Numbered from the stretch's first letter, positions 1 to 16,165 are shown. The stretch: 64,000 nucleotides of DNA from an uncultured Bacteroidaceae bacterium (GCA_944320955.1 CALUJL010000014.1:1-64000); one strand, 5' to 3'. Made by a program: numbers and translations. The notes: a model not told the origin generated them from the letters alone.

Positions 1-20
1 GACAGTCAAACATAGCGAAA

Positions 21-116
21 CGTTGAAAACTGCACGGTCTCTTAGTCGTTACCGCTACTTCTCAAATAATTTGCTAAAAGTTTATTCTTCAAACGATTGT
101 GTCAAACCGTTGAAAA
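21..116. repeat. short direct repeat CGTTGAAAA at the left edge
   Basis: CGTTGAAAA occurs at 21-29 and 108-116, each preceded by (G/C)AAAC. The second copy overlaps the last codons of the truncated barrel gene. This could be the scar of the event that removed the barrel's 3' half, or chance; the window ends too soon to tell. Confidence 0.3.
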
Positions 117-1297
117 TCTAAAATAAAACTCAGTTCGTGGTTGGTGTTGACAGAAAAGCGGTCGGGAGTAGAAGTGGAGGCCGAGCGTCCGTAGGTATCG
201 CCTCCTTCGAGGAAGTTGACCCGGCTGCCCTGGCTTTGGTAGTCCCCTTCGGTGTAGGCGAGGCGCGCATCGCCTTTGAGGTTGTATTTCCCTTCACGCT
301 GCGAGACATCGTAGCTGAATCCCCCGGTATAGCTTTTCATGACCCCCGTGGCCTGCTGCAGGGGGCTCCAGTCGCCGTTGTCGCCGGGGCTGCGGTCGTC
401 GCTCAGGTTGTTGGCGTTGCCGAAGAAAGCCAGGCGCGAATGCGGGGTGAAGCGCAGGGCGAAGAGGCGGCCGAGGAAGCGCTCGTCCGTGCAGCCGCCG
501 GCCTCGGCATTGGCTATCCAGCCTATCTGGTACTGCCGCTTCAGGCCCACGTCGAGGACGTACTGCTTGCTGTCCGGCCCGATGGCGAAGGGGTTATGGG
601 GATCCTGCTGCTCATAGGCTTTCACGTCCTTCACCATGAAGGCCGGGAGGTTGTCGAGCATGAGCTGGCGGTCGTCGCTGAAGAAGCTCTTGCCGTCGAG
701 CAGGAGCTCGTCCACCTTGCGCCCGTTGACGTAGATCTCCCCGCCCCGCTTGACTTCCATGCCGGGCAGCTGCTTGATGAGCCGGTCGAGCATCGATCCT
801 TCGGCCAGTTCGAAGGCATCGGCATTGTAGACCAGCGTGTCGCCTTTGTTGTAGAACTTGATCTGCGTGGCCTTCACCACGGCCGCCTCCAGGTGCGTCT
901 CCTTCTGCTGCCGGGTCTTCCGGATGAGGAAAGGTTCTTGGGTGTGCTCTATGCTCGTTTCGTATTTGTAGAACTTCGGGATGTCCAGTTCGTTGTACGT
1001 CGTATCGTACCCCTCGGCGGTGCAGCGCACCAGGAACTTGCCCGGCCGGGACAAGAGAAGCGAAACATAGGCCATCTTCTTAAAACTGCCTCCGCGCGTC
1101 ATATTCCCGCTCTTTCCCTCGGCCACGAGCGAACTGTCGGCCGCATCCAGGACTTCCACCTTCACCCCGAACACCGGCTCATACGTCAGGCTGTTCGCCA
1201 CGGAGCCAATCAGCCAGACTTCGCGCTGCTTTTTCTGGGCCAGAAGGGAAACAACCGGCAGTAAAAACAAAAGGGAAAATATATATAGTTTCTTCAT
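89..1297 (-). pseudogene. 3'-truncated outer-membrane beta-barrel (TonB-receptor-like) gene of the RiPP locus
   Basis: About 402 residues. It opens with a signal peptide (MKKLYIFSLLFLLPVVSLLAQ), then a carboxypeptidase-like beta-sandwich (residues about 30-140), a plug-like segment with GSMLDRLIKQLPG and IYVNGRKVDELLLDGKSFF, and the first barrel strands. I chose the internal Met at 1297 because it heads the signal peptide. The paralogue at 9038-11920 is about 960 codons and matches it through the plug, so this copy lacks more than half of the barrel. Its frame diverges just before the TGA at 89-91, and further stops follow in the first 90 bases, so a deletion or rearrangement is likely. It is the last gene of the minus-strand peptide operon and was probably the uptake or export barrel for the modified peptide (inference). 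Confidence 0.75.
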
Positions 1298-1373: not shown

Positions 1374-1637
1374 TTAGAACAATCCTCCGGAGAAGAAATC
1401 CATCATGATTTTGGAAGACTTACTTGTTGAGGTAGGGGCAGGAGTAGTGGTAGCACCCGGACAAGTATTACAACTCGTACAATTATGGCAATTCCCGATA
1501 TTGAGATCCCATTTGGGAACTGGCGATACTGTACCTGATATTCCTACGAATCCTCCTCTCAATTGTCCTTCACCGTCTTTCTCTATCGGAGTCAAGTCCA
1601 CGCGGCAGTGGATAATTTCATTTTTCTTTTCGTTCAT
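1374..1637 (-). CDS. putative RiPP precursor peptide, LRGGF leader, Cys-rich core with mucin-like Thr/Ser tail
   Basis: The product has 87 residues. The N-terminal leader has LRGGF at residues 26-30, the Gly-Gly context seen in Bacteroidales natural-product precursors. It is followed by a spacer and a CxxCxxCxxC block (Cys50, 53, 56, 59). Residues 62-75 are almost all Thr, Ser, Pro and Ala and contain TTPAPT (64-69). The end is hydrophobic (IMMDFFSGGLF). The gene sits directly downstream of three glycosyltransferase genes, one with a SPASM domain, and upstream of an outer-membrane barrel gene. That architecture, small size and composition support a ribosomally made, modified peptide. Cleavage after Gly29 and O-glycosylation of the tail are inferences. 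The sister-locus remnant shares the order Cys cluster, Ser-rich stretch, hydrophobic end. Confidence 0.75.
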   Translation of the reverse strand: MNEKKNEIIHCRVDLTPIEKDGEGQLRGGFVGISGTVSPVPKWDLNIGNCHNCTSCNTCPGATTTPAPTSTSKSSKIMMDFFSGGLF

Positions 1638-1711
1638 TTTTTAATGATGTTTTTGAGTTAAAGATTAAATTGATTGATATTCTCTTCGATTTTGCTATCT
1701 GCTCCTTCCTG

Positions 1712-3055
1712 TCATGGGCCACACCTACTTTCGTCTGTTTGCTTACCTTCTATATGGACAAAGAGTCCCATAAACAGTCTGTCTATCCGTCCTTCTTCGA
1801 CAAGGCAGCGGAGACCGTAACCGGCATACCCGGCCAATCCGGCCGTGTGGTTCCACTCCATCTGCTTCGGACGGATAACTTCCGTCCGAAGCGGGAACCG
1901 CTGCCGCAGGTATTCCCGCAGGGAGCGATCCTTGCCGGTCAGGCGGTTTATCTCATTGAGCCACACAAGGGTTTCCTCGCCGTAGCGGACCGTCGCGTCG
2001 TCCAGCAAGCACTCCAATCCCGCGGCAATGCCCAACCTGCCGGTCTCGTAGGTAGGGTCGTCGGTCGTCCGCAGCTCTTCTTCGGAATAGCGCAAGGCCG
2101 CATCGCGTCCTTCGCGCAGATCCCGTCCTGCGGCCTGCCCGTAGAACTGCAAGAAGAGCGCCGCGCCGATATTCCCCAAGTACAATCCTCCGGAAAGGTC
2201 CGGCGTAATCCGTTCCCCGACGCGGCGGGCCACTTCGTCCAAGCCCAAGTTCTCCACCGGATCCTGCCCCGGCCTTTCCGCCCGGCGCAAGCAGGCTATG
2301 CCCTGCAGCAAGGTCCCGGAGACCGCCGGGTCTATTTTCCGGGCAAAGAATTTGCGCCCCTCCGCTATTCCCAGCAGGTCCGTGTGGTCGAGTACGGCCG
2401 GGTTATTGCCGTTCCGCCACCCCCAGGAGACGTAGCGCAGGTTGTCGTTGACCACCGTCCGGGCATAGGGACTGTTCATGAGGACAGTCTGGGCGAACAG
2501 TTCGTCAGGAATCCTCGCCTTGGCAAAGACATTCCGGATGTTCTCCTCCTGCTCCACCAGAAAAGCGACACACTCCCTCGTCAGACTCCACCACGCCGAA
2601 CCGCCATACCAGCGGAAACCATCGAGCAGAGAGGGGCAGTTGCGGACGCGGTCCCATCCCCCGTATGCCCAAGACTCCCGGGGCAGCGTCCCGTAGTCCA
2701 TGAAGTTTTTCCCCTCGTTCAGGAGGAAAAACCGTTTGAACGTATCGAGACCGGCCGTGAGGGCATCGGCCCCGCTGATGAGATGGAAGTAACGCAGCGA
2801 GGGGTCTTTGAGCGCTTCCCGGCAGAGATAGAGCGTGGCGGCCACGATGCCATAGCTTCCCCAATCGGCGGAGTACTCCTGCCCTACGTGCATTCCGCCT
2901 CTTCCGGCTGCGGCAAGCAACGCCCTCTCTCCGGCAGCAAGCGGATATTTCCTGTCCCAATGGAGGAAGAGGCGGAAATCCTCGTCGAAACTACCGGCAA
3001 GGCTCTCCACATACGCACGGTTGCAGTGGGCTATGATGAGGACGGCATGCTTCAT
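1712..3055 (-). CDS. GT14-family (core-2 GlcNAc-transferase-like) glycosyltransferase fused to a short LanC-like domain
   Basis: The product has 447 residues. Residues 1-250 look like a GT14 beta-1,6-N-acetylglucosaminyltransferase: MKHAVLIIAHCN at the start, HLISGAD at 91-97, and a WW pair at 155-156. Residues about 265-447 resemble a LanC-type cyclase with Gly-rich helix starts (SGGLYLGNIG, YETGRLGIAAGL, NHTAGLAGYAGYGL). Only three of the usual seven repeats are present and no Cys/Cys-His zinc site is seen, so the cyclase part is shortened and probably not catalytic. The start was chosen because ATG overlaps the TGA of the upstream gene (ATGA), giving translational coupling. The fusion may be functional or a deletion product joining two neighbouring genes. 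It is likely part of the machinery modifying the 1374-1637 peptide. Confidence 0.7.
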   Translation of the reverse strand: MKHAVLIIAHCNRAYVESLAGSFDEDFRLFLHWDRKYPLAAGERALLAAAGRGGMHVGQEYSADWGSYGIVAATLYLCREALKDPSLRYFHLISGADALTAGLDTFKRFFLLNEGKNFMDYGTLPRESWAYGGWDRVRNCPSLLDGFRWYGGSAWWSLTRECVAFLVEQEENIRNVFAKARIPDELFAQTVLMNSPYARTVVNDNLRYVSWGWRNGNNPAVLDHTDLLGIAEGRKFFARKIDPAVSGTLLQGIACLRRAERPGQDPVENLGLDEVARRVGERITPDLSGGLYLGNIGAALFLQFYGQAAGRDLREGRDAALRYSEEELRTTDDPTYETGRLGIAAGLECLLDDATVRYGEETLVWLNEINRLTGKDRSLREYLRQRFPLRTEVIRPKQMEWNHTAGLAGYAGYGLRCLVEEGRIDRLFMGLFVHIEGKQTDESRCGP

Positions 3056-5442
3056 CGGGACCGGGTATCGGCTTGTCTCAGATTGTAGAGGGCTACGATG
3101 TCCTGCACCCGGTTGCGCACCATGCGCAGCCTTTCTTCTTCGGAGAGTCCCTTGACGCAACGGTCGAACGCCTCGTAGCGCTCCAGTTTCTGCTGGCTGC
3201 ATCCCCCGTGGCAGAGCGGGAATATGCGGCAACGGCGGCAGGCCGCCCCGCCGTAGGTTACGCTGCGGCGCTTCGCGTGGTTCTCGTTCCAGAGGAAGCG
3301 GCCTGCCTCGTCGAGGATGCCGTCCTTGTTCTCTTCGGCAAAATCGCGGGCGGTACACTTGAAGAGGTTCCCGTCGTAATTGACCGTGACGGAGCAATCG
3401 TCGTCGGCATAGCAGCGTCCTACGGTATTCGACGTATAGGGGCTGACGGCGAAGCCCCGGTCGAGAAACGCGTTCTCGATTTTCCGGACGTGCTTCTCCA
3501 GCACCTCGGGCTTCACATCCGAAGCGTCCTGCCATACGCGCTGAGGATTGAACGTCAGATAAACCTTCTCATCTGCGGGCACATCCTTGAAGTCGGATAC
3601 GACATCGAGGAAGAACGGCAGCGAGGCCTCCGTGAAGTTGAGGCGTACGGTAGTGCGGAATCCGTGGCGGAGGCACAGGCGGATGCGTTCGAGGGTGGGA
3701 TGATAGGTATCGCCCCCGCTGTCCGCCGCCTTCTTCACCTTGTTGTGGACATAGGCGTTCCCGTCGAGCGGCACCTCTTTCTGCGTGAGAAGGGCGACCG
3801 GATTCTCCATCACGGCGGCTATCTCCTCCCGAAGCCGCCCGTTGCGCTCCTTCCGCTCGCGAAGCAAATCCACAGCCTGCGCATACAGCGAGGAATCGAC
3901 CGACAAGGCCACGGCATGCGCCATGCAACGGAGCGAAGCGGGGAAGAGCACATCGGCGATGAAAAGGTAGTTGTAGACCTCTTCTTCACAAAAGCGTTTG
4001 TAGGGCGAGCGGTCGCGGTAGATATGCCCGATAACTGTATCTTTCAACAAAAGGCAACGCCCTCCTTCGCCCCATACCTTGAGGCTGAGGAAAGCCTCGT
4101 CGCTCCCGTAATACATCAGCCCCTCCAGCCCCCGGATCCGCTGCCAATACCTCTTGCTGGCCGCATAGCCCGCTCCCAAGACCGCTTCTATCGGCTCGAT
4201 ATCCGCCTGCGGGTCGTGTTCGCGGCAGTTCCACGTAATGCCCGGCATGTAACCTTTCTTGTTAAATTGCAGGCAAGCCCCGTAGGTCACGGGGCAATCC
4301 TCCATGAGGTACACTTCCCCGTCCTTCTTGCCGAGGAAGCGCGTCTGGCAGCAGAGGAGGCAACGGTCGTCCTCGTCCAGAAGGCGGGCAATGCGGCGGT
4401 GCCAGCCGTCATCGTAAAAACGCATGTGGGCATCGAGCAGGAGGAAATAGGGTGTCCGGCAGAGCGACACGCCGTAATCCCGGGAGGCGGCTACGCCTTT
4501 GCGCTCGATGTTGTAGACATACGTCACATCATAAGGGCGGAGGCTCCCGCGATAGTCATAGCCATCGTTGGACTGGTCGTTGATGACCAGAATATCGACT
4601 TCCATACCGACGTGTTCCCGGATGCTCCGCACCGTTTTCGCCACTTCCTCTTTTTCATTAAGGAAAGGGATAATGACGGTCAACTTGTTGTCCGTCCGGG
4701 GTACGACGGGCGGATTCTCCCTGGCCCACGCTTCCTCCTCGCGGGCCATCCAGCGGCTGAGCAGGTTCTTGACCCCCTTGACCGCCCGGGCCTGCTCGCG
4801 GGCATGACGGAAAGTGGCCTGCGAATGGGAGAGCCGATAGCGCACCAAGACTTCGGGAAGATTGCGGATCGCAAGCCCCTGCATGGCCGCACGGGCCCAG
4901 AAAGCATAGTCCTCGGCATAAATGTACGGCCGCTCGTAGCGGATGCCGAGGCGGTCTATGGACTCCCGCCGCATCATGACGGTGGGGTGTGCAAGGCCCG
5001 AACCCCGCTCGTAGAGACTCCTGACATCCACTTCTCCCGGATAAGTCATCGTCCACTCCTCCCCTTCCCCGAAGACCCGCATGTCCCCGCCCAGGATGTC
5101 CACGCCGGGATGCGCCTCCAGATAGTCGTATTGAAGGCGCAGGCGGTCGGGCATCATGAGATCGTCGGAGTCCATACGTGCCACGTACTTGCCCCGCGCC
5201 TCATCCAGAGCGCGGTTGCAAGAGGCTATATAGTCGTGAGTCCCCCGGATCAGGCGTATGCGGGGGTCGCGGAAAGAACGTATCAGCCCGCAAGTCCCAT
5301 CGGTAGACCCATCGTCCACAATGACCAATTCGAAATCGGTGAATGTCTGCGCGAGGATGCTCTCCACGCACTCTTCTATGTATGCAGCCCGGTTATAGAC
5401 CGGCATACAGACGGATACGGCAGGTTTCATGGTACGATTCAT
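3052..5442 (-). CDS. GT2 - GT27-like polypeptide glycosyltransferase - SPASM fusion protein
   Basis: The product has 796 residues in three blocks. Residues 1-235 are a GT2 domain (VDDGS at 42-46, MDSDD at 90-94). Residues 250-530 resemble a polypeptide N-acetylgalactosaminyltransferase: LLLDAH with the DxH metal motif at 337-339, GSDEAF at 446-451, GHIYR at 472-476. Residues 553-796 are the back half of a radical SAM peptide maturase, starting at VPLDG (557-561) and HNK, with a SPASM domain carrying Cys677, 683, 696 and CxxCxxxxxCxxxC at 735-748, plus Cys762. The front half, with the CxxxCxxC that binds the SAM [4Fe-4S] cluster, is absent, so radical chemistry is not expected. The fusion is either a peptide-binding adaptor for the transferase or a deletion scar. 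It overlaps the next gene by 4 nt. Confidence 0.75.
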   Translation of the reverse strand: MNRTMKPAVSVCMPVYNRAAYIEECVESILAQTFTDFELVIVDDGSTDGTCGLIRSFRDPRIRLIRGTHDYIASCNRALDEARGKYVARMDSDDLMMPDRLRLQYDYLEAHPGVDILGGDMRVFGEGEEWTMTYPGEVDVRSLYERGSGLAHPTVMMRRESIDRLGIRYERPYIYAEDYAFWARAAMQGLAIRNLPEVLVRYRLSHSQATFRHAREQARAVKGVKNLLSRWMAREEEAWARENPPVVPRTDNKLTVIIPFLNEKEEVAKTVRSIREHVGMEVDILVINDQSNDGYDYRGSLRPYDVTYVYNIERKGVAASRDYGVSLCRTPYFLLLDAHMRFYDDGWHRRIARLLDEDDRCLLCCQTRFLGKKDGEVYLMEDCPVTYGACLQFNKKGYMPGITWNCREHDPQADIEPIEAVLGAGYAASKRYWQRIRGLEGLMYYGSDEAFLSLKVWGEGGRCLLLKDTVIGHIYRDRSPYKRFCEEEVYNYLFIADVLFPASLRCMAHAVALSVDSSLYAQAVDLLRERKERNGRLREEIAAVMENPVALLTQKEVPLDGNAYVHNKVKKAADSGGDTYHPTLERIRLCLRHGFRTTVRLNFTEASLPFFLDVVSDFKDVPADEKVYLTFNPQRVWQDASDVKPEVLEKHVRKIENAFLDRGFAVSPYTSNTVGRCYADDDCSVTVNYDGNLFKCTARDFAEENKDGILDEAGRFLWNENHAKRRSVTYGGAACRRCRIFPLCHGGCSQQKLERYEAFDRCVKGLSEEERLRMVRNRVQDIVALYNLRQADTRSR

Positions 5443-5460
5443 CTTTTTCTTCCTTCTAAA

Positions 5461-6252
5461 TCATATCCGCGGCTTGATGGGGTGGAACAACTTGTCGGGC
5501 ATTCCCAAAGCCTCCACCTCTTCTTGCCGAAAAACTGGGCGATACCGCATCGTCCCATCGTTCACTTCCACTCCCTGCACATAAAAACGGTTCCGGAAAC
5601 CCGGGAGGACAAATTCCCCCGTCCCGCCCATGTCGACCAACTTATACCCATGATGGAATAAAGCCGTCGACACGATGGTCTCGTAGTGCCCGCGGGTTCC
5701 CCTCTTCAAGAAACCGTCGAGAAAGGCCAAAGCCCTGCCGGACAGACGGGAGACGGGATTGAAAGACTTGACACAGCCATCCAAAGGCACTTCCTCCCCG
5801 GCAGGCCACTCGGCCGGCAGCCAATGGGCCCAATCGGCATTGCGCGCCGGATCGTACTTCTCGATATGGCAACTGAGCAAATCGGCATCCACCGCTTCGA
5901 AAGCTGCCGCCAGCGTATGCCAACTGCCCGTAAACACGGCATCTTCCTCTATATACCAATAGTTACGGTACTGCGGAAAAGCTCTAAAGAAGTATTGCAG
6001 AATGAAGTTGACACTGCCATAAAGCGTATCCCGGCTCAGAGGCGTATATCCCATACGCCACAAGTCGTCTTTGCTGAAGAAGAAGAAACGAATCCGGTCT
6101 TCCAGCAACCCCAACCCGATATCGGCCTCCCGCTGGAGAAGCCAATACACATCGTACAAGCCGGACGGCAAGTCGGCACACAACTTATCGTATCCCCGGA
6201 TCGTATCCCGGCAAAGATGATGGGAAACAAACAAAGCCACATCTTTTTCCAT
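5461..6252 (-). CDS. glycosyltransferase-like protein, first gene of the peptide operon
   Basis: The product has 263 residues, with no signal peptide or membrane segment. The centre has YIEEDAVF, an acidic metal-binding-like motif as in GT-A fold transferases, followed by a conserved-looking AADLLSCHIE-type block and GHYETIVSTALF near residue 190. I cannot assign a CAZy family. It is first in the operon, 18 nt before the GT fusion gene, and is the third sugar-transfer protein in the locus, so elongation or capping of a peptide-linked glycan is a reasonable guess. A DUF with unrelated function cannot be excluded. Confidence 0.6.
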   Translation of the reverse strand: MEKDVALFVSHHLCRDTIRGYDKLCADLPSGLYDVYWLLQREADIGLGLLEDRIRFFFFSKDDLWRMGYTPLSRDTLYGSVNFILQYFFRAFPQYRNYWYIEEDAVFTGSWHTLAAAFEAVDADLLSCHIEKYDPARNADWAHWLPAEWPAGEEVPLDGCVKSFNPVSRLSGRALAFLDGFLKRGTRGHYETIVSTALFHHGYKLVDMGGTGEFVLPGFRNRFYVQGVEVNDGTMRYRPVFRQEEVEALGMPDKLFHPIKPRI

Positions 6253-6390
6253 AAGCTCTTTTTTTTATCTGTTTTTCTATTATGAATAACATTTCTGCAA
6301 TAAGAAATGCAACTTTAACCGCTCACTTTTTTGCTTTTATTAGCAGACAGGCCAACTCCATCCGGCAGCATTTTGCCTACCCTGCTGCCT

Positions 6391-6423
6391 CAAATCTAAA
6401 AGGTTTCCGAATACAAATCCAAA
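6391..6423 (-). promoter_or_regulatory. promoter of the glyco-peptide operon
   Basis: On the minus strand TTTG (6423-6420) is followed after 21 nt by TAGATTTG (6398-6391), a full match to the Bacteroidota TTTG/TAnnTTTG form. It gives a leader of about 130 nt before the ATG at 6252. Confidence 0.6.
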
Positions 6424-6458
6424 TAAAATTCCTCTTTTTCCCCTTTTCAAGCCCAAAA

Positions 6459-6476
6459 ATCACCCTTTCGGGTGAT
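6459..6476. promoter_or_regulatory. palindromic operator, copy 1 (ATCACCC-TTTC-GGGTGAT)
   Basis: Perfect 7-bp arms around a 4-nt spacer. It lies between two divergent promoters and is centred about 76 bp upstream of the -7 element of the peptide operon. It has a near-identical twin at 12392-12417, at the same distance from the sister locus promoter. This is a likely binding site for one of the adjacent LuxR-type regulators (inference). Confidence 0.65.
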
Positions 6477-6492
6477 AAAAAAAACAACAGAA

Positions 6493-6524
6493 ATTGCCTT
6501 CGAACAGAAAAAAATCTATTTTTG
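6493..6524 (+). promoter_or_regulatory. promoter of the LuxR-type regulator genes
   Basis: ATTG (6493-6496), 20 nt, then TATTTTTG (6517-6524). The leader to the ATG at 6561 is about 30 nt. The operator palindrome ends 16 bp upstream of the -33 box. Confidence 0.6.
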
Positions 6525-6560
6525 CACCTACCGAAACTTTCTATTCATATTCATGACTCC

Positions 6561-7310
6561 ATGAAAAATCTCCTCTCCGCACTGCCAGCAATCGGCCCCA
6601 TCGAGGAAGAACGGTACCAAAAGGCTGAATCGCTGGTGCTGGCCGCCCAGGCTTTCGCCCGAAGCAGCCACAAGTGCGTCTACATTATCGACTACTACCG
6701 GAGAAACTTCCTGTACGCCTCAGAGGGTTTCCGCTTCTGGCTGGGGCTGGATTCTGAGGAAGTCCGCGACCTGGGATTCGAACTCTACCTCCGGCACATA
6801 CCGGACGAAGAGCTCCCCCTCTTCAAGGAATTCTGCCGGAAGAGTTTCGAGTTGCTGGAAACATTTCCCCCGGAGAGGCGGACAGAGTACAACTTCTCCT
6901 CCGACTTCCACTTCCGATGCAACAACCGCCTCCGCATGGTCAACCTGCAGTTCCTGCCTCTTGTTTTGGACCGGAAGGGGAACTGCTGGATAGCCTTGTG
7001 CACCTTTTCCTTTTCTTACCGGAAAGAATGCGGGCACCTCATGGCCAACCGGAAAGAGGATCCCTGCTATTACGAATATGTCCCGGAAGAACAACGATGG
7101 ATACCCAGACCGCACATCAAACTGACAAAAGGGGAACACGAGGTGCTGCTCCTACTGATGCAGGGACTGAATGTCAATGCCATCAGTGAACTGTGCAACA
7201 AATCTCCGAACACGGTGAAGACCGTCAAAAAGAGCTTATTCCTCAAGCTCAAAGTCCGGTCGATCCAAGAAGCCGTGGCCTGCGCCATGACGTACCAGCT
7301 GATAAGCTGA
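6561..7310 (+). CDS. PAS-like sensor/LuxR-type transcriptional regulator
   Basis: The product has 249 residues. Residues about 35-145 look like a PAS-type sensor (VYIIDYYRRNFLYASEGF, then the FLPLVLDRKGNCWIALCTFSF strand region). The C-terminal 65 residues are a LuxR/GerE helix-turn-helix (LTKGEHEVLLLLMQGLNVNAISELCNKSPNTVKT). I start at the Met at 6561, 37 nt after a good promoter; the open frame extends upstream through the promoter and operator, which cannot be coding. Divergent from the glyco-peptide operon and next to the shared palindrome, it is the best candidate for its regulator. Confidence 0.8.
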   Translation: MKNLLSALPAIGPIEEERYQKAESLVLAAQAFARSSHKCVYIIDYYRRNFLYASEGFRFWLGLDSEEVRDLGFELYLRHIPDEELPLFKEFCRKSFELLETFPPERRTEYNFSSDFHFRCNNRLRMVNLQFLPLVLDRKGNCWIALCTFSFSYRKECGHLMANRKEDPCYYEYVPEEQRWIPRPHIKLTKGEHEVLLLLMQGLNVNAISELCNKSPNTVKTVKKSLFLKLKVRSIQEAVACAMTYQLIS

Positions 7311-7350
7311 ATCCACGAAATAAAACCGAAAACTTCAAAACCCCGAAACG

Positions 7351-7812
7351 ATGAAATTCTGCTTCTTCCCCGATTTCCCGACCTGCCGGGCGGAAGACTG
7401 CGACTACAGCCTCTTCCGCAACCGAAAGTGGGAAGAAGACCCCACCGCCCTGGACGAACGCGAGAAGCACGTCCTGCGGCTGTCCATCCAGGAGCTGACG
7501 CAGAAAAAAATCGCCGACAAACTATGCCTCAGCGTGGACACCATCAAGAAAATCAAGCAAAAGTTCTTCGACAAGCTGGGCGTACACACCCTCACCGAAA
7601 CCATCCACGCCGCCGAGAAACGGGCCGCTCTTCATATCCATAACCAATTCCGTCCACAAAAAAAACCGGCAGTGACACTGCCGGTTTCCCCTGCGGCTTT
7701 TGCCGATTTGCTGCAGGGCTTTTTCCTGTTTCCGCCGCATCGCTCCGGAAGAACCGGCAGGCTACGTTCTCTTTTCTTCGGCTGCCGGACAAAATCGGAG
7801 CGACAAGCCTAA
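7351..7812 (+). CDS. short LuxR-type helix-turn-helix protein with an odd C-terminal tail
   Basis: The product has 153 residues. A GerE-type helix-turn-helix covers residues about 30-95 (LDEREKHVLRLSIQELTQKKIADKLCLSVDTIKKIKQKFFDKLGV), preceded by a short N-terminus without a sensor domain. The 6561 regulator ends soon after its HTH. This frame instead runs about 55 residues further, through a strong hairpin that terminates the convergent gene, and overlaps that gene's stop by 4 nt. The tail is Pro/Arg-rich and does not look like folded protein, so an original stop near 7660 may have been lost. It probably forms a regulatory pair with the upstream gene, 40 nt away. Confidence 0.65.
   Translation: MKFCFFPDFPTCRAEDCDYSLFRNRKWEEDPTALDEREKHVLRLSIQELTQKKIADKLCLSVDTIKKIKQKFFDKLGVHTLTETIHAAEKRAALHIHNQFRPQKKPAVTLPVSPAAFADLLQGFFLFPPHRSGRTGRLRSLFFGCRTKSERQA
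7656..7687 (-). terminator. intrinsic terminator of the 7809-8777 gene
   Basis: The arms AAACCGGCAGTG and CACTGCCGGTTT form a 12-bp stem. Read on the minus strand the stem is followed by eight T residues. It lies inside the 3' end of the convergent LuxR-type frame. Confidence 0.75.
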
Positions 7813-8777
7813 ATAATCCGTACAGCATCGCGTGCCTTCTGCCGCGTGGCAACATCCTTGACGTATATCCGGATTACGGAAACCGGCCCCGTATGCTGCC
7901 AGCCCGATTGGACAACTCCTTTGGCCAACGATTCGATATCGGCCGGACCGAACTGCAATATGGAATAAATCGCATCTCTGTCAATCGCTATCTTATCGAA
8001 ATCCCTCGTCACAACCCGGTCGTTGATGATGAATACCGGCCTCGAATAAGGAGCAAAAGGAGTGCTTTCTACAATATCCTTCAGCCTCAACATGCCGGAC
8101 TTCCCGCCGGAAGCACTCCCGTCTTTCCCTTCGGAATGGGTATTTCCGCCCTGCTGCCGTGCAAGATACTTCTTAGTCTGTATCTGCAGGACACACAGAT
8201 TCATGTCCTCCTCCCTGAAGTTATAGTTCTGGATGTCTCCCGGCCGCAGCACATCCACCTGCTTTATATACGCCTTATCCAGGCGCAGCTGGGCAAGGTC
8301 GTCGGTCAACAATATCCCGTCCACCATAAACAAACAATTCCTCACCGGCACATCAGGGGCATATTGCTTATGGATATCCGCAAGCCCCACCAACTCGGGC
8401 TTGTACGAGTCCGACCTCAAATCGATCTTCCCCTCATACAATTGCCCCTCATAAAGCACTTCCGTCTGGTTGACCCTCTTTTGCGGAATAGTAAAAGAAC
8501 TCGTATCAATGCCTACCCACGACTTGACAAACGTGCCGTTCAGGAACAGGGCATAGGGGAAATGATTCACCTCGTTATGCAGGTCCACGGCAAAATAACG
8601 GTTCTCCAGTTCGGTAATCTTTTTAGAAGGAACGCCGGCAAACTCCCCTTCCGGTATAGCTGCCACGGCCGCGGCTATTTTCTCTGCCGGAATGTTTACG
8701 ACACTGTCTCTTTCTCCTGCATGCAAAACGGTGAAACTGCCGATGAGGCAAGCCATTGATAATAACATTGTTTTCAT
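7809..8777 (-). CDS. secreted protein of unknown function between the two peptide loci
   Basis: About 322 residues with an N-terminal signal peptide (MKTMLLSMACLIGSFTVLHAG). Two stretches (PVRNCLFMVDGILLTDD and SRPVFIINDRVVTRDFDKI) resemble each other and the plug-type 'xxxINGRxV' turns of TonB-linked proteins, and each is followed by a (D/S)I(Q/E)-type segment, so the protein looks like a two-copy repeat. There is a low-complexity Gly/Ser linker around residue 225. I start at the second ATG, 9 nt after AAGGAG; the first ATG (8783) is only 3 nt from it. No specific function is recognised. A cell-surface role with the neighbouring barrels is possible. Confidence 0.65.
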   Translation of the reverse strand: MKTMLLSMACLIGSFTVLHAGERDSVVNIPAEKIAAAVAAIPEGEFAGVPSKKITELENRYFAVDLHNEVNHFPYALFLNGTFVKSWVGIDTSSFTIPQKRVNQTEVLYEGQLYEGKIDLRSDSYKPELVGLADIHKQYAPDVPVRNCLFMVDGILLTDDLAQLRLDKAYIKQVDVLRPGDIQNYNFREEDMNLCVLQIQTKKYLARQQGGNTHSEGKDGSASGGKSGMLRLKDIVESTPFAPYSRPVFIINDRVVTRDFDKIAIDRDAIYSILQFGPADIESLAKGVVQSGWQHTGPVSVIRIYVKDVATRQKARDAVRII

Positions 8778-8805
8778 AAGCATAATCTCCTTTTTTCTTT
8801 GCGGC

Positions 8806-9037: not shown

Positions 9038-11920
9038 TTAGTCTTTTTTCTTCGGCTGTTTGGTGAAATCGTATCGTATTTTCAACATGATGTATCGCCC
9101 GAGGGAATTGCGATAGGTTTCGGTCTGTACCTGTGGAGTGGAATCGTATCGGATATTCCCCATTTGGTCCAAGATGTCGAAAGCAACTAAACGAAAAGCC
9201 ATTTTCCCTTTCAGTATCTTCTTCTCTATATGAGCCGACCAGATGTATTCCTCGGTATTGAAACTGCGGTCCTGGTATCCGCGGTGCACATAGACCTTCA
9301 GGTCTTGCCGCATTTCCATGTTCCATGGAAGCGGTACTCTTATCACAAGCCCGCAATTCACATCGAAGAGATTCATGGTGGAGAAGAGCTTGCTCTCGGA
9401 ACGTGTGTACCGGGCGTTCAAGTTAATCCTAAGCTGGGGAAGAAAGTTATCTTTATAGAAGAAAAGTTCGAACCGTTCGGCCACGCTCAAATCCCTGACG
9501 GAATTGCGCGCGGCACTCAGCCCGTCGCTCAAGGCGGCGAACCCCACATTGTTGGCATATCGTATGTCCGTAAACGACGAGATTCTGCGGTTGGCCTTCC
9601 CTGTGGGGAAGAAATATTCGAAGCCCATTCCGGCATCCCAGTTACCGCTGGTATTTTGCGGCCGATAGGTGCGTATGCCGCTTGCCTTGTCGTACACCAT
9701 GGACTGACGTACCAGATTTTCGTAGAGATTATAATAGAATGAGAGGCTTGTGAGTCCGTAGTTTTCGCTGTTTTCCCTAAAAAGACGCAGCGATGCGTTG
9801 TGGCGCGCTGAGGCTTTCAGATCCGGGTTCCCGGAATTGACCACCAACGGGGTGGATTCATCGCGGTAGTCCACGGTCTGCAACAAGTCGGGCAAACTGC
9901 GGGTGTAGCGATACTGCCACTCGAGGCCTTTCTTTACCGGGCCGTTTTTCCGTGAGCAACTGAAATTAAGATAAGGCTCCACATAGAATTCCTTCCGCAC
10001 GGGCACGGTGTCTAAAGCAGCCCGTTCGTAGCCGAGCCTGTCGTATGAGAACAGGAATGGTATTCCTATCGTATAATCGAAACTCGTATTCGTCCAAATG
10101 GCTCCTTCGAAGGTTAATTCCGGTCCGTGCACCTTCGACATCCGCGAGGCACGGTAGGTATCTGTTCTGTCCAAGAAGGGAGAAAGGCTGCCTGCCGATT
10201 CGTGCAGCCGGTCGATGCCCATGTCCTCGAAATCGGAGTTCTCCAGATTGTAAAAGGGCCGCGAATCGGAGCGGTAACTCTGCGCGTAGGAATAGCCCAA
10301 ATTGATGTGTGTCGTACCGGGTATGCCAAAAAGCCCGTTGAGTACGTACCTGTATTGCGCCCCGAGCCGGTAATTGTATCGGTCTTGCGGGTTTTCCTCG
10401 TAATTGTACCTGTTTTCCGGGGCATCGGCGTTCCAATGGTCGTAGCTGTTCGTGCGGCGGCTGTCCGAATTGCCGTAGCTGAACGAACCGTTGAGAGTGA
10501 ATATGTCGTTGTTCGTCCCTCGCGGCCGGAATGAGACCTCCGAGTTGAAGCCGGTCGAGAGGTCGTGCCCCTTTCCATTTATACTGTTGGCCAAGGTGGA
10601 TATCGTGAAAGCCCGGAAGCGGTCTGAAAGCCCCAGGGGAGAGAATACACTGTCGAGCATCTGTCCCCGATAGGACTCCTAGATCGTCCGGCTGAAGTCG
10701 GCACTCAGCAGTCCCGAGGCATCCTTAAAGTAGCGGTAATTCAAGAAAGGGGAAACCTTGACGTAGATGCCCGTCCTGGGGGTCCACGAGACGTTGAACG
10801 CGGTATTGAGCGAAGCGTCCTTGTCGTTGCTTGCCGATGACTGCCGCTTGTAGACGTTCCCGCCGGCGAGGAATTCGGTGGACGAGAGTTGCTCCTCGCG
10901 GTCCACATCGAGCATCGTGCCCTGCGCATTGCCCTCTACCGTAAACTTCTTGTATTTGTCGTTGACCAGGATGTCCACTCCTCCCTTCACCGTTTTCATC
11001 AGCCCGTCGTCCCGGCTGTTCTCGTTCCACTGACCATCCGAGCGGTAGGTATAATCCTCGTTCACATCGTTGGCATCGGCGTACAAGGCCACCCTCGACT
11101 GGTCGGAAAAGCGCATGAGGAAGCCCCTCCCGACATAGTGCCCGTCGGTGCCGACGCCTCCTTCCACATTGCCTATCCATCCGATGCGGTACTGCTTCTT
11201 GAGGTTCACGTCCATGACCAGCGGATATTCCTGTCCTCCCTTCTGTATGCCGAGCGCCAATTCCCTGTCGCTCTGCCGCTCGTAGACCTTGATGTCCTTC
11301 ACGGTATAGGAGGGCAGATTGTCGAGCGCGATCCGGGGGTTGCCCCGGAAGAAATCGTTCCCGTTGAGCATCAGGCTACTTACCTTCTTTCCGTTGACAA
11401 ATATCTGCCCTTGCTCGTCGATGCACGTGCCGGGCAGCATCTGTACCAGCTGGTCCAGCATGGATCCTTCCGGAAGGTTGAACGCATCGGCATTGTAGAC
11501 GAGCGTATCGCCCCTGAAGTACATCTTGATCTGCGTGGGCCGCACCACCACTTGGTCCAGTACGGTTTCCTTATATTGCCGCTTCATATAGATGTAACCT
11601 AAATCTTCATAGGTTTTCCGGTATTTGACGTATCGGAACGTGCGGTTGAGGTATTCGTCGCGGTACCCCTTCCGTGAAAAACGCAAAATATACTTCCCCG
11701 GGCGGACTTTGATGTCGTGAAAATTCCACTTCCCATATTTTTCGGAATGAAAGGTGTAAAGGAGCGTGCTGTCCTCATCCAGCAGGGAGAGGGTAACACT
11801 GTCCATCAGGGTAACGGTCATGTAATCCATCACGCTGGCCTGTATTCCGAACTCTTGGGCCCGGAGGGAGGCAAGGGGCAAGAGAAGGATCAAAACAAAG
11901 GAAAAGAGTATTTTGCGCAT
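9038..11920 (-). pseudogene. outer-membrane beta-barrel (TonB-receptor-like) gene interrupted by an in-frame TAG
   Basis: Signal peptide (MRKILFSFVLILLLPLASLRAQ), carboxypeptidase-like domain, plug-like motif (IFVNGKKVSSLMLNGNDFF), then a long barrel ending in TKQPKKKD. The frame is 961 codons but carries a TAG at 10681-10679 (RTI, stop, ESYRGQ) with no frame change, splitting it into about 413 and 546 residues. TAG terminates ordinary genes in this window, so this is most simply a nonsense mutation, perhaps from CAG. The second half could restart at the Met at 10660 but has no export signal. It is the full-length paralogue of the truncated barrel at 89-1297 and follows a peptide-gene remnant, so it belongs to a decayed sister locus. 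Confidence 0.8.
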
Positions 11921-11952
11921 GGCATGGTATTTATTTACGGTTAAACGGAAAT

Positions 11953-11989
11953 CCATTCAAAGAGACCGGATTCCGGCCTCTCTGAATGG
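11953..11989 (-). terminator. hairpin between peptide remnant and barrel gene
   Basis: CCATTCA...AGAGACCGGA pairs with TCCGGCCTCTCTGAATGG with two mismatches, giving a strong stem. There is no U-tract. The position corresponds exactly to the hairpin at 1329-1357 in the intact locus, suggesting a shared attenuator or stabiliser. Confidence 0.5.
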
Positions 11990-11997
11990 CTAAACAA

Positions 11998-12234
11998 TCA
12001 AATAAAAGGCAGCCCTAATGCTTGACTACTCAATGAACTCGAAGAAGAACCATAATAAATTGTGCAACTACAATTGTTACCCGTATTAGAACACGGACGT
12101 ATCTCTTCGACTCCGTCACTTTTCAATAGAGGCAACAACTCGGGCTGGACGACTGTTATCTTCTCCGTCTAACAATTATATAAAAGAAGGAGATCTTCCT
12201 TCTTTACGATATAGGAATACTTACTCAACTTCAT
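11998..12234 (-). pseudogene. remnant: radical SAM maturase N-terminus (with TAG) joined to a peptide-precursor C-terminus
   Basis: One continuous frame of 78 codons from ATG at 12234 to TGA at 11998, broken by TAG at 12171-12169. Codons 1-21 (MKLSKYSYIVKKEDLLLLYNC) and the next 25 or so (TEKITVVQPELLPLLKSDG) match the start of Bacteroidales radical SAM/SPASM peptide maturases as I know the family. From about 12093 the frame becomes CSNTGNNCSC, then a Ser-rich run and a hydrophobic end (ALGLPFI), the layout of the peptide at 1374-1637. I infer an internal deletion fusing maturase and precursor genes, plus a nonsense mutation. A short functional peptide gene cannot be fully excluded. Confidence 0.6.
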
Positions 12235-13392: not shown

Positions 13393-14529
13393 TCACAGGA
13401 GCACAGTCTTGATCCACATGCCGAAAAGTTTGTCGGTCACGGAATAGACTTTTCCATCCTCGGTAATGAGGTCCTTGTCCAACAGCTTCTTTGCCGCCGA
13501 CTGCACGGAACTGGCCGATGCGAGGCTGTGCCGGCGGATGAAGTCGGCGGAAGTGATGCCTCCGGCTTCCCCTTCGCGGGCTATGGCATAGAGCAATTCT
13601 TTCTGCTTCTCGGGAATGTTTGAAAGAATCTCCCGGAAAATAACATCGTTGGACACCACCATACCGTCGATAGCCCCCTGCACGATCTCCTCCGTGCAGT
13701 CCCCACCCTCGGGGGTATCGGCAAAGGCTGCGTTGAATGCCCGCTGAATATAATAAGTATGTCCCCTGAAAAGCGTATAGACCCTCTCCACCAGCGCCCC
13801 GTCGACGCGGCGTCCCCGCTTCCCGAAATGCCCCACGACAAAGGGGACGTACACTTCAAGCGGAATGGCTTTCAGCTCCATGATGTCCGCGCTGTGATAG
13901 AACGGGCGTGCTGCTGACAGGAACATTTCCTGCATCATGTGGCGTTCGCTTCCGGCAAAGATGAAGCGGCTGTTGTCCTGCCGCTGTATATGGGTGCGTA
14001 GCAGGGCTTCGATGTTTTTCTCCGGATACTTGGCCACTTGCTGAAACTCGTCGACCGCCACGATGCAGGGCTTGTCGGCCCCGGCCAGATAGCGGAATAT
14101 CTCGTCCAACGTGTATTCGGGACGCTCAATATCGCCCAACTCCAGACTAAAAACCGGCAGATTGGAAAGCGGGTCGAAGCCGAACTTCCCACTGAGCGAA
14201 CGGAGCGTCTGGAGAAAAGCCCGGGCCATCTTGCGGCTGCGGGGCAACAGGGTCTCGTAAATCTCCTTCCCCAGCAGGTAGGTAAACTCGCGGAGGCTCG
14301 ACGTGTGGAGTATGTCGATGAAGAACGTGTAATACTCCCGGCTTATCTCGGGTTTGTCGCAACAGAAACGGATGAGCCCGGTCTTCCCCATCCGGCGCGG
14401 GGAAATGATGACAAGGTTGTTCCCGTTGGTCACCGACTTGAGCAACCGGGCGGACTCCGCCGCCCGGTCGCAGAAATATTCCGGGGCTATCTTTCCGGTC
14501 ACGACAAAAGGATTGGGCATTCGTACCAT
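13393..14529 (-). CDS. AAA+ ATPase of the archaeal-ATPase (PF01637-like) family
   Basis: About 378 residues. Walker A-like SPRRMGKTGL occurs near residue 45 and Walker B PCIVAVDEFQQ near residue 155, followed by a sensor region (FIFAGSERHMMQEMF) and a C-terminal winged-helix-like part (LASASSVQSAAKKLLDKDLI). Such ATPases are common, often single-gene, accessory elements in Bacteroidales, with unknown role. The frame opens at 14550, but that Met lies inside the promoter -7 box, so I start at 14529 (14520 is the alternative). It is convergent with hicAB. The upstream region carries a remarkable inverted repeat. Confidence 0.8.
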   Translation of the reverse strand: MVRMPNPFVVTGKIAPEYFCDRAAESARLLKSVTNGNNLVIISPRRMGKTGLIRFCCDKPEISREYYTFFIDILHTSSLREFTYLLGKEIYETLLPRSRKMARAFLQTLRSLSGKFGFDPLSNLPVFSLELGDIERPEYTLDEIFRYLAGADKPCIVAVDEFQQVAKYPEKNIEALLRTHIQRQDNSRFIFAGSERHMMQEMFLSAARPFYHSADIMELKAIPLEVYVPFVVGHFGKRGRRVDGALVERVYTLFRGHTYYIQRAFNAAFADTPEGGDCTEEIVQGAIDGMVVSNDVIFREILSNIPEKQKELLYAIAREGEAGGITSADFIRRHSLASASSVQSAAKKLLDKDLITEDGKVYSVTDKLFGMWIKTVLL

Positions 14530-14547
14530 CGTCTGTATTCTTTCCGG

Positions 14548-14603
14548 CAAAGATAATTATCCGCTTCGAATTATGCAAATCGAATAATTCGAAGCGGATA
14601 ATT
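14548..14603 (-). promoter_or_regulatory. ATPase promoter embedded in a perfect 20-bp inverted repeat
   Basis: Arms 14555-14574 and 14584-14603 are exact reverse complements around a 9-nt loop. On the minus strand TTTG lies in the loop (14579-14576), followed after 20 nt by TATCTTTG (14555-14548) at the edge of the left arm. A protein binding the repeat would block transcription, suggesting autoregulation. Confidence 0.7.
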
Positions 14604-14632
14604 TTATTCTAACTGCTGCGCCGGGAGAGGCA

Positions 14633-16165
14633 TCAGGGGCGGAATGCGGCACGGACACCCTCGCCTTTGAGCTCGCGGGCAAAGCGCTGAGGCGAGATGG
14701 TGACGGGGCCGCTCATGAAGACGGGCAGATTGAAGGAACGGTAGAAATTGGGGTAAAACTCCGGATCGGCCTGGGGCAGGATAAAGGGCTTACGGGCCCG
14801 GCCGTCGGGGGTGATGTAGGCAAAATAGGGGCGGGTGTAGGAACCATCGTCGCGGCGGGAGCTGAAGACGAGCCAGCGGCTGTTGGAGGACCAGAAAGGC
14901 TGGGTCTCCACATCGGGGGAGCAGGCGGCATCCAGCTTCCGGGCAGAGCGCCGGGCGGCCTCCAGGTCGGAGTGGCGCGGGTCGGTGCCGAGGTCCATGA
15001 TCCAGAGATCGCTGCTCTTGTGCCAGACGTGGAAGCAACCGTAGTCGCCGAGGGCGAAGACGAGCCAGCGCCCGTCGGGGGAAATGCGCGGCATCGTGGC
15101 GCTGCGGCCCATGGAGTCGGCATCGAAGAGCAGTTCGCGCGGGCCGAATGCGCCGGAAGCGTGGTCGTAGGCCATGCGGTAGACATTGTAACGGATCGTC
15201 TGGTAGTCGTCCATCAGTTTGCGGTCGCCGCCCTCGGGGTCGTAATGGTAGCGGGCGGAGCAGAAATAGAGGTAGTCCCCCTCGGGCGACCACCAGGGGA
15301 AAGTCTCCAGTTCGTCGGGCTCGGCGGCTATCTTGCGCACGGTATTGGCCTCCACGTCGTAGAGGATGAGGTCGGAATGGCTGTCCTGCACCTCCACTTT
15401 CTGCAAGTCTTTCGTGTGGAAGCTCTGCCCGGTGGTGTTGACGGAGTAGGCTATGAGGCGTTCCTTGGGATGCCACGAGGGATAGACCCCGGCAGAAATG
15501 ACGGAACTGTCGGCCTTGAGGTCCACTTTCTTCAGCTCCCCGTCGACGACGAGCATCGTGCCGCCGTGGGTCTGGCGGGCATGAAACTGCATGTTGTCGG
15601 GCGAGTAGTTCTGATAGGCATGGCAATTGATGCACTGCCCGTCGGAGCCTTCCACTCCGAGCTGGTTGTTGTAAATCTCCGATTCCTCGAAGGAGGTGAG
15701 GTCGCGCTGGTTGATGGTGAGTGCCTCGTAGGTCACGTAGGAGGGCGCGATGAGGCGGTAGGAAAGCCAGGGGTCTATGGGTTCCTCGGCCACGTGTACG
15801 GCAAAGGGGCGGAATCGCGTCCAGCGGCCGTCGCGGCGGGCATAGACTTCCACCTCGATGTCCCCGCCCTTGGCGGCGGCAAGCAGGTCGCGCCAGTCGT
15901 CGAGCCCGGGCTTGACGGCAGCGCCGGAGCAGAGGACTTCGGTATCCGCGGCGCGGAAACGGGTGACGTACTCCTCCGCCTCGTCGCAGACGAGGAAGCG
16001 GAGGGGAGCGATGTTGGAGGGGACTGTGACGCCGCTGTAGTCGGGAGCGATGCGGGGGGCCTCCTTCCCTTCGGCATACGACGAGGGGACATCGGGGCCG
16101 CAGCCTGCCAGAAGCAGGCCGAGGAGGGGGAGGAGGAAAAGGAAGTATCGGGCGGAGTTTTTCAT
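14633..16165 (-). CDS. PD40 beta-propeller lipoprotein with a CxxCH motif
   Basis: The product has 510 residues. The lipoprotein signal (FLLPLLGLLLAGC) places it on the periplasmic face or outer surface. A beta-sandwich-like N-terminal part (to about residue 165) is followed by CINCH, a CxxCH heme-c motif, near residue 190. Then come TolB/PD40 propeller blades (SWHPKERLIAYSVN, WWSPEGDYLYFCS, RISPDGRWLVFALGD, FWSSNSRWLVFSSRRDD). Only one CxxCH is seen and no cytochrome maturation genes are nearby, so heme attachment is unproved. It lies 25 nt downstream of the DUF6057 gene in one operon; the two may work together. Confidence 0.75.
   Translation of the reverse strand: MKNSARYFLFLLPLLGLLLAGCGPDVPSSYAEGKEAPRIAPDYSGVTVPSNIAPLRFLVCDEAEEYVTRFRAADTEVLCSGAAVKPGLDDWRDLLAAAKGGDIEVEVYARRDGRWTRFRPFAVHVAEEPIDPWLSYRLIAPSYVTYEALTINQRDLTSFEESEIYNNQLGVEGSDGQCINCHAYQNYSPDNMQFHARQTHGGTMLVVDGELKKVDLKADSSVISAGVYPSWHPKERLIAYSVNTTGQSFHTKDLQKVEVQDSHSDLILYDVEANTVRKIAAEPDELETFPWWSPEGDYLYFCSARYHYDPEGGDRKLMDDYQTIRYNVYRMAYDHASGAFGPRELLFDADSMGRSATMPRISPDGRWLVFALGDYGCFHVWHKSSDLWIMDLGTDPRHSDLEAARRSARKLDAACSPDVETQPFWSSNSRWLVFSSRRDDGSYTRPYFAYITPDGRARKPFILPQADPEFYPNFYRSFNLPVFMSGPVTISPQRFARELKGEGVRAAFRP

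Follow-up and report, generated by a model that had tools for sequence, protein, structure and literature searches.

The window, by which we mean the whole stretch of 64,000 nucleotides analysed here, carries a partly deleted and fused version of an operon that recurs in gut-type Bacteroidales. We consider it probable, at roughly 0.6, that the intact operon directs the synthesis of a glycosylated, Cys-crosslinked RiPP and that the copy in the present genome is a deletion derivative from which the radical-SAM chemistry has been lost. The first base of the window is also that of contig C14, from a genome of 2.65 Mb, and the operon is transcribed from the minus strand in the order P0003, P0002, P0001, an 87-aa peptide and the N-terminal half of a barrel, with the P0002 and P0001 genes overlapping by 4 bases (Table 1). 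An earlier note on this DNA had described an operon with a small LRGGF-leader peptide, two fusions involving glycosyltransferase domains, a third glycosyltransferase-like protein and an outer-membrane barrel. The operon is there and so is the peptide, complete with its four-Cys block and T/S/P tail; the 5' start, however, is at 6252 rather than 6423, the genes continue outside the window on contig C33, and the barrel gene is present only as an N-terminal half that breaks off at the contig start, with the rest on C33. Two LuxR/GerE-type regulator genes (6282-7812, plus strand) lie divergent from the operon and are possible regulators of it; a further gene (7809-8783, minus strand), encoding a 324-aa, probably secreted protein with no Pfam match, sits between these regulators and a decayed barrel.

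Table 1. Features of the operon and of its decayed second copy, in window coordinates.
Feature	Position	Strand	Basis
P0003, 263 aa, DUF3405-like putative third glycosyltransferase, at the head of the operon	5461-6252	-	ORF
P0002, 796 aa, GT2 + GT27-like + radical SAM/SPASM C-terminal half	3052-5442	-	single stop-free frame
GT2 domain of P0002, residues 1-245	4708-5442	-	PF00535 2e-53; AlphaFold residues 1-550 pLDDT 92.9
GT27-like domain of P0002, residues 250-512	3907-4695	-	phmmer, profile, invariant D337xH339/E449/H473, fold
Fusion junction in P0002, ~residue 550-555	3780-3795	-	BLAST against triple fusions and radical-SAM proteins
Radical-SAM barrel C-terminal half and SPASM in P0002	3055-3786	-	TIGR04085 over cut-off
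P0001, 447 aa, GT14 domain and short tail, tentatively LanC-like	1712-3055	-	PF02485 4.2e-20
Precursor peptide A1, 87 aa	1374-1637	-	LRGG leader (28-29), Cys block C50-C59, T/S/P tail 60-76
Barrel A N-terminal half, TonB-receptor-like outer-membrane protein, interrupted	~125-1297	-	barrel homology
Non-barrel sequence at the end of contig C14, probably an insertion terminus	1-124	.	barrel homology ends at 125; single copy in assembly
Radical-SAM N-terminus remnant with in-frame TAG, decayed second operon copy	12094-12234	-	in-frame TAG
Second-copy barrel C, decayed, interrupted by in-frame TAG (10681-10679)	9038-11956	-	in-frame TAG

Contig C33 carries the C-terminal half of barrel A (G000:C33:~150-1839), a 105-aa precursor, an intact barrel B, an exporter and a 140-aa gene, and we place it next to C14 because the two contigs hold complementary halves of one barrel gene. 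The precursor has an EGHLRGGF leader, a Cys about every fifth residue and a PTPTPTPTP tail, and the exporter contains a C39-peptidase domain (PF03412, PCAT) and shares 72% identity with its counterpart in a related locus (L102). An LRGG leader and a C39-peptidase ABC exporter are therefore found in one operon, a feature of PCAT-exported GG-leader RiPPs. Since sequence foreign to the barrel occupies both contig ends (window 1-124 and G000:C33:1-~150), an insertion is likely, and it probably broke both barrel A and the assembly; a search for a multi-copy IS with the C14 contig-end sequence found one copy only in the assembly. A second copy of the operon (9038-12234, minus strand) has decayed, leaving 46 residues of a radical-SAM N-terminus, interrupted by a TAG, together with a barrel that a TAG splits in frame. 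We considered recoding of the in-frame TAGs in three barrels and rejected it: barrel B ends regularly at its TAG, and the others belong to the decayed copy.

Mucin-type O-glycosylation is regarded as a eukaryotic trait, and in animals it is started by GT27 enzymes. The middle domain of P0002 is GT27-like. When the second glycosyltransferase domain is searched alone with phmmer, polypeptide GalNAc-transferases come first (E ~4e-9); with a profile of 26 relatives, the top 15 PDB matches are all GT27 polypeptide GalNAc-transferases, at 5e-21 to 4e-14 and over the whole domain, and ordinary GT2s align to the same profile mostly over the first ~90-140 columns. D337, H339 and H473, which line up with the DxH motif and the distal His in GT27 (GALNT) enzymes, are invariant in 28/28 sequences, as is E449; DxH and the Asp/His/His metal ligands have been described for GALNT1 (PMC4202792). 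The AlphaFold model of residues 1-550 matches GalNAc-T2, T12, T10 and Toxoplasma GalNAc-T3 in fold. The unusual domain assignment of the earlier note thus stands when residues 250-530 are checked against the ordinary GT2s of polysaccharide synthesis, as does the wider proposal that P0002 combines GT2, GT27-like and SPASM domains, the last of these scoring 34.9 bits against a cut-off of 27 (NCBIfam TIGR04085).

One might still suppose that these glycosyltransferases make a surface polysaccharide, the tandem arrangement working like chondroitin polymerase, and that their RiPP neighbours are there by chance. PF00535 spans the first domain, and for residues 1-550 Foldseek ranks tandem GT-A polymerases (K4CP chondroitin polymerase, heparosan synthase) first by E-value. 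Those matches, however, span both domains at an rmsd of ~21 and arise because both are tandem GT-A folds, whereas the second domain alone is GT27 by profile and has DxH, not DxD. Moreover, a LanC domain is fused and a radical-SAM gene adjoins in 25/26 loci, with precursors between, so that we regard a polysaccharide function as very improbable.

How widespread is the operon from which the window copy derives? Using the GT27-LanC protein of a relative as query, we recovered it from 21 of 399 same-family genomes (~5%), representing 10 of 30 genera and including the window's own, and from three further genomes in the order. A scan of named genomes yielded 78 loci, among them loci from Paraprevotella xylaniphila, Prevotellamassilia timonensis, Alloprevotella, Bacteroides fluxus, B. 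acidifaciens and Parabacteroides faecis. The canonical locus comprises a GT2-GT27-LanC fusion (~800 aa), a radical-SAM/SPASM gene, at least one precursor, a ~970-aa barrel and a C39-peptidase ABC exporter. Within the stretch fetched around intact triple fusions, the radical-SAM gene lies alongside in 25/26 cases and the barrel in 25/26, the exporter count there being limited by contig ends and flank length. Radical SAM or exporter is present in 57 of the 69 Bacteroidota-type loci. Nine GT27-like loci of other phyla have no radical-SAM, exporter, LanC-like or barrel neighbour. Stand-alone GT27-like proteins lacking RiPP neighbours occur in Kordiimonas, Sphingomonadales, Saccharibacteria, Thiomargarita and Melioribacteraceae (L219, L221-L227, L229). 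Decay of such operons is common, three related ones (L040, L110, L169) having broken GT14 or radical-SAM genes.

Set against its relatives, P0002 falls into two parts. BLAST against 26 triple fusions gives a match up to ~residue 549, where LanC would be expected to start, and BLAST against 37 radical-SAM proteins gives a match from ~556 on, beginning at radical-SAM residue ~200. P0002 has neither the LanC domain nor the radical-SAM N-terminal half, and the CxxxCxxC cluster motif, present in 42/42 relatives, is absent from it; a search of the rest of the genome for a complete radical SAM of the system's family found one remnant only. Judged from these alignments, P0002 looks like a deletion chimera in which an ancestral GT2-GT27-LanC protein became joined to its neighbour's SPASM half. 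Because the two genes adjoin in relatives, a single in-frame deletion of ~1.4 kb would explain the fusion. The GT27-SPASM combination listed in the earlier note is not supported as the design of the system; it is unique to the window copy, with no second case among the 78 loci of named genomes and ~27 more (partly overlapping).

Could the fusion nevertheless be a functional new architecture, in which the SPASM half, with its Fe-S clusters and no radical-SAM core, binds the precursor for the glycosyltransferases? The 796-aa frame is open, all seven SPASM Cys are kept (CRRCRIFPLCHGGC at residue 735), GC and GC3 are alike on both sides of the junction, and, measured against GT27, the SPASM half is not strongly accelerated (residuals with a mean of -3.0 and an sd of 6.7, compared with -15.5 for a frameshifted relative). 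Together, the retained Cys and the want of clear acceleration imply that the fusion is either recent or useful, and the residuals fit either alike. We nonetheless think a working fusion unlikely, although far from negligible, given that it has no counterpart among the relatives, that neighbouring genes are decaying, and that a recent deletion accounts equally for the conservation.

With the radical-SAM core missing, the radical-SAM step must be absent here, barring an unrelated enzyme that takes it over, and any peptide that the genome still makes would carry sugars but no crosslinks. It may also be that there is no product and that the window locus is a pseudo-operon: radical-SAM core and LanC have been lost, barrel A is interrupted, and the second copy contains in-frame TAGs. 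Yet the frames of P0003, P0002, P0001, both precursors, barrel B and the PCAT exporter are all intact, and any acceleration of the SPASM half does not go beyond the scatter. A defunct locus is a serious possibility, though less likely than not.

The remaining enzymes bear on how much of the proposed glycan chemistry is general. P0001, which had been described as a GT14-LanC-like fusion, does contain a GT14 domain (72.8 bits against a gathering threshold of 23.4); its nearest PDB relative is xylosyltransferase 1 (5e-5), and a PDE motif at residue 183 recalls the SPDE motif of GT14 (PMC4202792). The tail of ~190 aa is LanC-like only tentatively, with E = 0.026 for NCBIfam LanL and a weak hhalign match (E = 5e-4, probability 32%). 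An orthologue of P0001 sits in the Paraprevotella xylaniphila operon. By our own profile, GT14 occurs in 4 of the 69 Bacteroidota-type loci; core-2-style branching, put forward in the earlier note, is therefore not a general step, and GT14 is better seen as an occasional accessory. The first matches of the GT14 search, GT14-methyltransferase-like fusions, were set aside as a family separate from GT14-LanC. Such fusions to an apparent methyltransferase (L041 9911-11416, L045 9446-10954, L056 11485-12918) are common in the bacterial family and are also found beside peptide-export genes. Another locus, L208, has two GT14-GT2 fusions (6367-8151 and 13841-15610) along with GT27-LanC, radical SAM and PCAT. 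As for P0003, its reading as a glycosyltransferase is weakly backed: it matches PF11885 (DUF3405) at 3.6e-5, under the cut-off, and has no relative in the PDB. Homologues of P0003 adjoin GT14/PCAT genes in L045, L058 and L109.

In the triple fusions, Pfam LANC_like matches the LanC-like domain in 17 of 20 cases, and the fold agrees loosely, the 18 best PDB fold matches of an AlphaFold model (pLDDT 90) being all LanC or LanC-like (TM 0.34-0.46, E of at least 0.01). There is no conserved Cys or His in the alignment of these domains that would correspond to the LanC zinc ligands (C...CH).

What, then, would the glycosyltransferases act on? Precursors across loci have EGxLRGGF-type leaders, a Cys block in which five is the commonest spacing, usually a Thr/Ser/Pro-rich tail (for example TTTTTTTTTT, PTPTPTPTPT or TTTPAPTSTSKSS) and a hydrophobic end. 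No NCBIfam model exceeded its cut-off for the 10 precursors tested, one of which is weakly CefA-like. Small LRGGF peptides of the kind the earlier note expected are present in homologous loci, and Thr/Ser/Pro tails recur with GT27. Using peptides of same-family radical-SAM loci without GT27 as controls, we find a median of 8 for the highest T+P count per 15 residues with GT27 (24 loci) versus 3 without (17 loci), with a per-locus p = 4e-7 that, like the other p-values for the tail, overstates independence because loci share ancestry. T/P clustering in the core (p<0.05) is seen in 18/31 precursors with GT27 versus 0/18 controls, keeping in mind that the peptide sets were chosen by eye from ORF lists and that GT27-positive precursors and cores are longer than controls; a strict T/P threshold is reached by 16/31. 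In GT27 lineages outside the triple-fusion clade, a tail is found in 7/21 loci versus 0/17 controls (p = 0.009), and in Bacteroides acidifaciens (L211) a different leader goes with a PSTKPTDKPTESPTVEPTAKP tail in what looks like an independent case. Among radical-SAM peptide loci, then, the Thr/Ser/Pro tail is associated with GT27.

SunS-type RiPP glycosyltransferases are GT2 enzymes that act on Cys. The present enzymes might likewise glycosylate Cys, in the manner of glycocin S-glycosylation, and the tail might serve as a spacer only, a reading with which the Cys-rich, tail-less precursors of some GT27 loci would agree. We find it distinctly unlikely, however, since among radical-SAM peptide loci the tail goes with GT27 and since it is Thr/Ser transferases that have the GT27 fold and its ligands.

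Returning to the glycosylated, crosslinked RiPP that we favour, we infer the chemical steps, their order, the sugars and the biological role as follows. A leader-GG precursor whose block of Cys repeats is accompanied by a tail rich in Thr, Ser and Pro would be modified in the cytoplasm, the radical-SAM/SPASM enzyme acting on the Cys block, probably to form thioether or related crosslinks. The GT27 part of the GT2-GT27-LanC fusion would add the first sugar to Thr/Ser of the tail, and the GT2 part, or sometimes GT14 or DUF3405-type enzymes, would extend it, although the GT2 part could act on a target other than the peptide; the LanC-like part would hold the substrate rather than cyclise it. The C39-peptidase ABC exporter would then cleave after GG, and at the outer membrane the TonB-receptor-like barrel may pass the product on, anchor it or take it up. 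In the present genome, the in-frame deletion would have run the GT2-GT27 gene into the SPASM half of the gene that follows it; what is left are the glycosyltransferases, both precursors, one intact barrel and the exporter. A more specific proposal strikes us as evenly balanced: that these are 'mucin-like' RiPPs, exported to the cell surface with radical-SAM crosslinks in their Cys repeats, and that the O-glycans on their Thr/Ser/Pro tail are built by a polypeptide HexNAc-transferase that is homologous to animal GT27 and shares one chain with a further glycosyltransferase and a LanC-like domain for substrate binding. If true, it would open peptide O-glycosylation to genetic work in bacteria, many of them from animal guts, and provide a candidate class of glycopeptide natural products with possible molecular mimicry of host mucins; the Bacteroidales LanC-like proteins without zinc ligands that were noted earlier would gain a use.

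In a search of the open literature, with subscription papers and preprints outside its scope, we found no paper naming a GT27-RiPP, bacterial GT27 homology, the triple fusion or mucin-like tails; for these topics and for Cef peptides, only PMC10352776 and reviews of a general kind came up. The P0002 domain resembles GT27 of CAZy along the whole catalytic domain, in the DxH...H ligands and in E449, which is WGGEN-like; it differs in being bacterial, at ~18-20% identity in fold alignments, and it lacks the C-terminal ricin-type lectin domain of animal GT27, having SPASM in that place where relatives have LanC-like sequence. Over residues 54-220, including the PDE motif, P0001 resembles core-2/I-branching enzymes and xylosyltransferases (GT14), but it has a LanC-like tail, and GT14 belongs to few loci of the system. 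Regions combining radical SAM, LanC and glycosyltransferases in Bacteroidales are already published: the accessible part of PMC10352776 describes areas of interest with rSAM and LanC (plus GlyS), BGC3-5, LanC proteins without zinc ligands, and no LanB in Bacteroidales. BGC3-5 share with the present system radical SAM and a LanC without Zn ligands, glycosyltransferases, GG-leader peptides and, as far as that part of the paper reports, the absence of LanB, whereas GT27, triple fusions and mucin-like tails are not named in it. The Cys-every-fifth RiPPs (CefA NF038108, CefB NF038107) share the commonest Cys spacing, and their maturase CefB is related to ours (9e-46); scores nevertheless fall far under the curated NCBIfam cut-offs (156 versus 600 bits; 13 versus 30 bits), and the present system adds GT27-LanC, the tail and the barrel.
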